A DNA stretch of 43,363 nucleotides, from assembly GCA_016186095.1 (NCBI GenBank), contig JACPMG010000023.1, forward strand, positions 1-43,363, written 5' to 3'. This document shows, in pieces, positions 18,495 through 28,286 of the stretch (the first letter of the stretch is position 1; each line of letters starts with the position of its first letter). A program made the translations under genes and the position numbers. Under the pieces are notes generated by a model. It searched no databases and was not told the origin of the DNA. It saw only the letters and a list, made by a program, of their open reading frames with translations. This DNA comes from Candidatus Sungiibacteriota bacterium (GTDB taxonomy: Bacteria > Patescibacteriota > Minisyncoccia > Sungbacterales > HO2-52-23).

Positions 18495-18713
18495 CTATGT
18501 CTTCTCTTGTCCCTCAAATTCTTCCGTGACCTCAAAGGCTACTGCGATTTCCGGGCATTCGGCATGAACAACGGTGGCTACTCGCTCTCGAAGTTCTGAT
18601 GAGTCTTCTTGAAGATACACAGTAAATTTACCACCCGGGATCCCAACACCGTTTACGCCATTAATGACCAAAAGCTTTGGAGAGAAATGAGCCTTGAGTT
18701 CGCATGCATTCAT
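18495..18713 (-). CDS. Hypothetical small protein, 72 residues
   Basis: Read from the ATG at 18713, which is preceded by GAGAGGTGGACCA; a TTG ten codons upstream lies inside the predicted -10 region and is less likely. The sequence begins MNACELKAHFSPKLLVINGV, has a glycine-rich turn, a strand (KFTVYLQED) and an acidic tail. Not recognised. Convergent with the Phd-like gene, upstream of tuf. Confidence 0.5.
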   Translation of the reverse strand: MNACELKAHFSPKLLVINGVNGVGIPGGKFTVYLQEDSSELRERVATVVHAECPEIAVAFEVTEEFEGQEKT

Positions 18714-26801: not shown

Positions 26802-26869
26802 TTCGCAAACCGTGTGACTTGCAGCGTGTAACGCAAGCGCGATACACGATACACGATACACTATACACG
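26802..26869 (+). repeat. 68-nt leader repeat, copy 1 (before rplX)
   Basis: Runs exactly from the stop of rplN to the start of rplX. Begins TTCGCAAACCGTGTGACTTG, then GCGTGTAACGCAAGCGCG and four TACACG-type units, the last joined to ATG as ACACGATG. It differs from copies 2-4 at a few positions (e.g. one TACACT). Confidence 0.95.
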
Positions 26870-27178
26870 ATGAAAATTAGGAAAGGCGACCAAGTAAAAA
26901 TAATATCGGGCAACGATAAAGGCAAACAAGGGAAAGTGCTGGCCGTTTTTTCCTCAAAAGGGAAGATTGTTGTCGAAGGCCTGAATATAAGGAAAAAGCA
27001 CGTTAGGCCTAAACAGCAGGGCAAGAAAGGAGAGCTTGTGAAGATCCCCGCTCCACTTCCTGTATCACGCGCCATGCTGGTTTGCCCAAAATGCGGAAAG
27101 CCAACGAGGGTTGGCAGTAAAATAAATGACCCGGGCCGAAAGGCGCGAGTCTGCAAAAAGTGCGGAGGAGAGATTTAA
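26870..27178 (+). CDS. rplX: Ribosomal protein uL24
   Basis: 102 residues from the ATG at 26870 (MKIRKGDQVKIISGNDKGKQ), the KOW motif. The C-terminus has CPKCGKPTRVG and CKKCGGEI, a zinc ribbon seen in many bacterial uL24. An in-frame upstream ATG would add residues encoded by the leader repeat and is rejected. The stop overlaps the end of an antisense gene. Confidence 0.96.
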   Translation: MKIRKGDQVKIISGNDKGKQGKVLAVFSSKGKIVVEGLNIRKKHVRPKQQGKKGELVKIPAPLPVSRAMLVCPKCGKPTRVGSKINDPGRKARVCKKCGGEI

Positions 27179-27627
27179 CCTATGTTTGTTTCACCTGCTT
27201 GTTCCATCTCGGAGTGGTATGATTCACCCTTCTCAGCGTTGAGAATGGAAGCCAACCAGAACCCGATCCATATATCACGCAAAGCAAGTAAGTAAGTAGT
27301 AGGTATACCGGAAAGCGATATCACGATTGTTGCCGCCACCGCCGTTATGAGAATAAACGCCTGAAAGAACATAGTTCCAAGCTCTTCTGTTATCTCTCCA
27401 CCCAGCCAGAAACAGAGATAGAGCCATAGAGACCAAGAAATTAGTATGAATACGGCTAACGGCTTAAGGCCGGATGTGTAGAGGACATAAGGGAGATAAG
27501 GAAAAAGGAATTCTTGGAACGGAACGAAAAACGTATTCAGGAGTACAGACGATACAGCATAACTCAAGACGTTAAGCGTAAGGAATAGAAGAACGTTAAT
27601 CTTCAGAAAATATGGGAGTCCTTTCAT
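27175..27627 (-). CDS. Antisense membrane protein inside the ribosomal operon
   Basis: 150 residues with about four transmembrane helices: INVLLFLTLNVLSYAVSSVL, the segment around FILISWSLWLYLCFWLG, ILITAVAATIVISLSG and the stretch around LRDIWIGFWLASIL; the C-terminus is short and polar. No known family recognised. It has an AGGAGG site (27633-27640 region) and a consensus promoter of its own, both stronger than any on the ribosomal genes around it. It separates uL24 from uL5, normally adjacent, and is transcribed against them. It could be a late insertion. Confidence 0.7.
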   Translation of the reverse strand: MKGLPYFLKINVLLFLTLNVLSYAVSSVLLNTFFVPFQEFLFPYLPYVLYTSGLKPLAVFILISWSLWLYLCFWLGGEITEELGTMFFQAFILITAVAATIVISLSGIPTTYLLALRDIWIGFWLASILNAEKGESYHSEMEQAGETNIG

Positions 27628-27658
27628 CGCCAGTCCTCCTAAGAGTTTTTCAAAATAG

Positions 27659-27686
27659 ATTATACTTGAGTCAATAAATATGTCAA
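27659..27686 (-). promoter_or_regulatory. Consensus promoter of the antisense membrane gene
   Basis: Minus strand TTGACA (27681-27686), 16 nt, TATAAT (27659-27664): a perfect sigma-70 match. Its -35 box overlaps the start codon of rplE on the other strand. A TATACT at 27661-27666 on the plus strand might serve rplE. Confidence 0.75.
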
Positions 27687-28216
27687 TCCTTCAGGAAAAA
27701 TATAAAAAAGAAATCATCCCTGCGATGCAGAGTAAATTTGGATACAAAAATATCATGTCCGTGCCTAGGGTGGTAAAAGCGGTCGTAAATGTGGGCGTGG
27801 GAAGGATTCGTGACGAAAAACAGCACGAAGAGATCAGAAAGTATCTTGCGCTTATCACCGGCCAAAAATCCGCCGCTCGTCCAGCGAAAAAAGCCATTGC
27901 TTCGTTCAAAACGCGCCAAGGCCTTATTGTAGGGTATCGGGCAACGCTTCGCGGGAAAAGGATGTACGATTTTTTGTCGCGGCTTATCAATATAGCGCTT
28001 CCTCGCACCCGGGATTTCAAAGGTATTGAGACGAGCTCATTTGATAGTAAGGGCAATTTGACAATTGGGATAAAAGAGCATATAGTTTTCCCGGAGATTA
28101 TCGGTGAGGACTACCGATTTTTATTTGGCCTGGAAGTTACGGTGGTTACCACGGCCAAAAAAAGAGAAGAGGGGATTGAGTTATTAAAGTTGATGGGATT
28201 TCCCATTAGGACTTGA
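27680..28216 (+). CDS. rplE: Ribosomal protein uL5
   Basis: 178 residues. FGYKNIMSVPRVVKAVVNVG, ITGQKSAARPAKKAIASFK and RDFKGIETSSFDSKGNLTIG are typical. It binds 5S rRNA in the central protuberance. No ribosome binding site; its start region doubles as the promoter of the divergent membrane gene. Confidence 0.97.
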   Translation: MSILQEKYKKEIIPAMQSKFGYKNIMSVPRVVKAVVNVGVGRIRDEKQHEEIRKYLALITGQKSAARPAKKAIASFKTRQGLIVGYRATLRGKRMYDFLSRLINIALPRTRDFKGIETSSFDSKGNLTIGIKEHIVFPEIIGEDYRFLFGLEVTVVTTAKKREEGIELLKLMGFPIRT

Positions 28217-28286
28217 ACTACGAATAGCGAATCGTACGAATATACGAATTCGTACATTCGTAAAAATTCGTAATTCGTAGTATAAC
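28217..28286. repeat. 70-nt fold-back spacer before rpsN
   Basis: Outer arms ACTACGAAT and ATTCGTAGT; inner GTACGAAT/ATTCGTAC blocks. Ends AACATG at the rpsN start. Confidence 0.85.

Follow-up and report, generated by a model that had tools for sequence, protein, structure and literature searches.

Few strings of genes in bacteria are more conserved than the S10/spc cluster. In the window, by which we mean the whole stretch of 43,363 nucleotides analysed here (genome G000), the rplX and rplE genes of this cluster are separated by a gap of 501 nt, and this is filled by a single minus-strand ORF of 150 codons that we designate P0001. It encodes a small multi-pass membrane protein with three hydrophobic stretches that matches no named family in the family databases; an AlphaFold model has a mean pLDDT of 52, too poor for a structure search. 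The order of rplX and rplE in the relatives is that of a single operon. A coding gene lies antisense between two genes of this operon, rplX and rplE being on the plus strand and P0001 on the minus strand. In sequence terms it also has a promoter of its own, both by its match to consensus (12/12) and by its covariation with the gene. Further along the cluster, rpmD is absent between rpsE and rplO in this genome, which together with its small size suggests a Patescibacteria/CPR lineage. The features of the joint, and of related loci discussed below, are collected in Table 1.

Table 1. The rplX-rplE joint of the window, and inserted genes in the S10/spc clusters of related genomes
Feature	Position	Strand	Basis or content
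rplX (uL24), stop 27176-27178	26870..27178	+	Pfam PF17136
TTAA common to stop codons of rplX (+) and P0001 (-)	27175..27178	.	sequence
P0001, antisense gene, 150 aa	27175..27627	-	ORF (ATG 27627, TAA 27175), homologue, codon-position pattern
Inserted DNA, rplX stop to rplE start, 501 nt	27179..27679	.	0-183 nt in family relatives
Shine-Dalgarno AGGAGG, 7 nt upstream of P0001 ATG	27635..27640	-	sequence
-10 box TATAAT, spacer 16 nt	27659..27664	-	sequence; 1 of 5 perfect genome sites
rplE (uL5), ATG 27680, start ATGTCAA	27680..28216	+	Pfam PF00673, PF00281
-35 box TTGACA = rplE nucleotides +2..+7 (complement)	27681..27686	-	sequence; covariation with rplE start
rplC-rplD inserts		antisense	lipoproteins G012, G015, G018, G019; membrane proteins G003, G017; Pro/Ala-rich with one hydrophobic stretch G054, G079
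rplX-rplE inserts		antisense	G000 (window), G017, G021
rplO-secY inserts		antisense	G012, G017, G039
Lipoprotein family loci	L157:3444-3677, L162:3180-3449, L172:3902-4159, L175:3830-4099, L199:3747-3977, L201:3609-3866		
rpsC-rplP ORFs	L155:7784-8047, L158:8062-8367, L162:7598-7858, L174:7926-8228	sense	

The promoter of P0001, TTGACA-16-TATAAT (27686-27659), matches the sigma-70 consensus at all 12 positions, the scoring assuming sigma-70 hexamers. Only five perfect TTGACA-N16-18-TATAAT sites occur in the 680-kb genome, where the reversed consensus pattern is found 0 times, and the odds of a perfect site falling within a given 150-bp stretch of one strand are ~5e-4. Since perfect sites are so rare, this one is beyond chance. 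The sequence-only reading of this DNA had located the promoter, its spacer and the AGGAGG site correctly, and was also right that the -35 box overlaps the rplE start, TTGACA lying on nucleotides +2 to +7 of ATGTCAA. It held in addition that these signals are much better than those around them. This is true of a 12/12 site that is rare genome-wide, but a promoter-like site in the sense orientation inside rplE (TTGACA-17-TATAGT, 28058-28086, plus strand) matches at 11/12. If active, the latter site could supply rpsN and later genes beyond the antisense interference. A strong consensus set against heavy opposing traffic need not mean that P0001 is strongly expressed, as the sequence-only reading had it. 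A bidirectional promoter was also considered, based on a symmetry rule (PMC10268837), since plus-strand TATACT at 27661-27666 overlaps the antisense -10 box; this would make rplE near-leaderless. The idea suits the window but neither G021 nor G017, and is kept as a side idea.

Is P0001 a real gene? A homologue with 49-50% identity over nearly the full length (E 9e-38) is found in G054, a genome of another family in the same class, where the sequence-only reading had named a lack of homologues anywhere as fatal to its view. Identity between the two genes at codon positions 1, 2 and 3 is 58, 73 and 42%, and 36 of the 69 identical residues are encoded with synonymous differences. On this comparison the pattern is that of protein-level selection, and a homologue that is 50% identical and has diverged mainly at third codon positions shows that P0001 is real. 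These are the two clear members of the family from ~860 phylum genomes; we did not count the weak matches in G177, G351 and G680 (E 4e-4 to 1e-3) as homologous. That the arrangement might be an assembly chimera or the ORF a product of chance is suggested by the draft state of the genome (32 contigs) and by the want of a named protein family, but we regard this as highly improbable given the protein-level conservation of the homologue, a GC3 of 0.46 that is close to the 0.49-0.50 of the adjoining ribosomal genes, and the repetition of the layout in two other genomes described below.

Comparison with relatives bears out the proposal that the gene is an insertion. The rplX-rplE spacing is 0-183 nt with no gene between in 12/12 family relatives, and class-wide a gene of this sort is missing from 110 of the 113 distinct junctions parsed. 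Seemingly large gaps at L041 and L232 were put down to parsing errors. We found no matching terminal repeats at the ends of the insert and only the one ORF within it, and no P0001 relatives were found in contig, viral, phage and plasmid searches. We rejected a mobile-element origin on these negative results for terminal repeats and for viral, phage or plasmid relatives. The joint accepts non-coding inserts too, since in G012 (L008) it holds a geneless insert of 183 nt with long inverted repeats, resembling a small palindromic element. Elsewhere in the window, short tandem or palindromic repeats lie in ribosomal intergenic gaps at 26840-26867 and 28217-28281, comprising CGATACAC units and ACTACGAAT...ATTCGTAGT; the gaps at these joints are 70-120 nt in many relatives and near zero in others.

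The insertion also bears on the translation signals of rplE. In the closest relative (G003) a single nucleotide separates the rplX stop from the rplE start, and GGAGG lies within the last rplX codons. The same GGAGG is kept in rplX in the window, but is ~500 nt away from rplE, and there is no Shine-Dalgarno sequence directly before rplE. This separation is an apparent cost of the insertion that needs explaining.

How general is the arrangement at this joint? Among the 113 distinct joints of the class, just three exceed 400 nt: those of the window (501), G017 (470) and G021 (421), which represent three families of one order. Each contains one antisense ORF with a good Shine-Dalgarno sequence, and the encoded proteins are small and hydrophobic (150, 137 and 121 aa, respectively). 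The antisense promoters match at 12, 10 and 12 of 12 positions, with the -35 box at rplE +2 to +7 in every case, and the antisense stop codon overlaps that of rplX in all three, the shared TTAA being present in G017 and G021 too. Common descent of the three proteins is unsupported. A profile search does link the G017 protein to those encoded at rplO-secY in G012 and in G017 itself (E 8e-6, the best shuffled decoy reaching 0.01), but P0001 and the G021 protein match neither of these above decoys. Since the three are not provably related, this suggests more than one acquisition at rplX-rplE.

The start of the sense gene changes with the presence of the antisense gene. The rplE start is ATGTCAA in 3/3 genomes with the antisense gene compared with 2/110 other class genomes (Fisher 4e-5), and among 22 genomes of the order exactly those three have an antisense promoter-like site of at least 10/12 at the rplE start (p 6e-4). 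At rplC-rplD a site of at least 10/12 in or near the rplD start is found in 6/8 genomes with an antisense gene and in 3/49 without (p 6e-5); these tests treat the genomes as independent, although they are related. On rplD the -35 box lies at +6 to +11 in G003 and G015 and at +2 to +7 in G054. G017 and G019 carry antisense genes at rplC-rplD yet lack a consensus promoter where rplD begins, and the rplO-secY antisense genes of G012 and G017 have promoters away from the secY start. In these comparative data, the covariation of sense-gene codons with the antisense gene is the best evidence that the antisense promoter works.

The phenomenon extends through the cluster. We scanned the clusters of 22 genomes of the order and 40 others of the class, all drafts, and every envelope-gene insert found between rplC and secY is antisense (14/14). 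The 14 fall into about seven gene families, and the genomes are related, so that independent events must be fewer than 14. The scans listed, from rplC to secY, no insert in the sense orientation that was clearly hydrophobic. The clearest sense insert, present in four genomes, separates rpsC from rplP, where similar ORFs encode a soluble protein; the copy in G003 (L155) matches DUF3850 (ASCH-like). The lipoprotein family at rplC-rplD, with a DGxxIxC...G core and no Pfam match for the two members tested, is antisense at this joint in four genomes and is found elsewhere in G293 and G062. Families f1 and f4 share it at this joint, and it has therefore probably, judged from this distribution, been long kept there. 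The arrangement of P0001 is thus not a lone oddity, but is real and recurrent, with other genes, in other families and at other junctions of the cluster, a recurrence missed by the sequence-only reading.

It might nevertheless be without regulatory use. Small envelope genes may simply land at the joints of compact genomes, those that are antisense with their own promoter being allowed, and the interference would then be negligible or a mild cost. Different genes occur at the same joint with patchy presence, and members of two families, the lipoproteins and the 'GY' membrane proteins, also occur elsewhere as ordinary genes. Moreover, the homologue of P0001 in G054 lies at yebC-ruvB (L002:1501-1920, plus strand), where it is a lone antisense gene. 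The sequence-only reading had proposed a search for homologues in a similar genomic placement, and this copy is antisense but at an unrelated joint. All this is what tolerated passengers would give, and we hold it to be a possibility of some substance, though an unlikely one. Set against it are the covariation of ribosomal start codons with the antisense gene, by which the promoter itself is maintained, and the keeping of the rplC-rplD lipoprotein in antisense in two families. What maintenance of the promoter shows, at this comparative level, is that expression of the antisense gene serves some purpose; that the interference is useful does not follow from it.

Other antisense ORFs were noted outside the ribosomal joints considered above. 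At yebC-ruvB a hairpin and a T-run resembling a terminator lie downstream of the G054 gene. In 4/7 of the family relatives of G054 this joint spans just a few nucleotides; in another, G184, a different small membrane ORF is antisense there (L202:3915-4196, plus strand), and in G099 a gene lies in the sense orientation. The fusA-tuf gap of the window contains a soluble antisense ORF of 72 aa (18495-18713, minus strand) with GAGGTG and TTGACC-17-TAGGAT, and that of G004 a different soluble antisense ORF of 76 aa (L158:1152-1382, minus strand) with TAAGGAGG.

We lean towards the reading that acquisition of an envelope gene antisense at rplX-rplE has turned the spc portion of the operon into a noncontiguous operon, whose membrane protein would be produced mostly at times of low ribosomal transcription. 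A membrane-protein gene inserted here in the sense orientation would be overexpressed, and for this reason it would be the antisense orientation that survives. Busy polymerases on the ribosomal operon would occlude the antisense promoter or collide with polymerases leaving it, so that only a near-perfect promoter would be kept; collision at the rplE start is expected from the geometry. The antisense mRNA would be the complement of an untranslated segment within the operon mRNA, and by analogy with known systems antisense and sense transcription may be mutually exclusive through polymerase collision and RNase III. Because ribosomal transcription is heavy during growth, the antisense gene should fire mainly as it drops, and the membrane protein would be made chiefly in slow growth or starvation. 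Firing at low ribosomal transcription would explain both the near-perfect promoter and the antisense-only survival of envelope genes.

An effect on the ribosomal genes themselves may also be envisaged. Polymerase bound over the rplE start and the antisense transcript may together lower expression of the operon's distal half, and this is plausible since in E. coli uS8 represses the spc mRNA at the rplE start (PMC10931766), i.e. at the same joint. Regulation of the distal half, as the sequence-only reading proposed, is thus possible, and is one of two live readings. In its strongest form antisense transcription would be a dedicated cis-regulator, kept to set the ratio of distal to proximal spc expression with the protein secondary. 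The antisense promoter does cover the rplE start, a known control point, but the P0001 coding sequence is under protein-level selection, the insert is missing from most relatives, and similar inserts lie at two joints that are not known as points of control, rplC-rplD and rplO-secY. We consider such a dedicated role improbable. A uS8 operator at the rplE start would be an RNA resembling 16S helix 21; among Rfam models, a scan of the joint gave only sub-threshold miRNA matches and no credible RNA element.

More speculatively, and here we are doubtful, the ribosomal super-operon could act as a growth sensor in this class of reduced bacteria, with diverse antisense envelope genes at rplC-rplD, rplX-rplE and rplO-secY, several having their -35 box in the first ribosomal codons, switched on when ribosome synthesis stops. 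The arrangement may tie envelope proteins inversely to ribosome production. It offers a concrete and testable case of mutually exclusive transcription around ribosome synthesis in mostly uncultured bacteria. Repeated antisense envelope inserts in S10/spc, with ribosomal start codons doubling as promoter elements, are unmatched in the literature that we searched: there was no report of antisense genes of this kind in ribosomal operons, coverage of subscription journals being thin, and a text search gave no paper combining 'noncontiguous operon' and 'ribosomal protein'.

The arrangement shares features with three known systems. Like the uS8 operator of E. coli, it would place a control element at the rplX-rplE joint, but that operator is a stretch of RNA to which uS8 binds, whereas here there is an antisense gene with its promoter. 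As in an excludon, the geometry predicts that a coding transcript would run antisense over the genes beside it; an excludon is however recognised by a long antisense transcript that has been observed, while the arrangement in the window is known from its sequence. The closest likeness is to the noncontiguous operons of Staphylococcus aureus menE-menC-MW1733-ytkD-MW1731 and of phage 80alpha (ith-1/tha-1), in which mutual exclusion of the strands, with polymerase collision and RNase III, is documented (PMC7154746, PMC11087260). Here as there, a protein-coding gene that has a promoter of its own runs antisense within an operon and is complementary over its whole length to expected polycistronic mRNA that is internal and untranslated. 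Unlike in these examples, the host is the S10/spc cluster, whose co-transcription is presumed from gene order, the start codons of the sense gene downstream supply the -35 box, and the layout recurs with different envelope genes.
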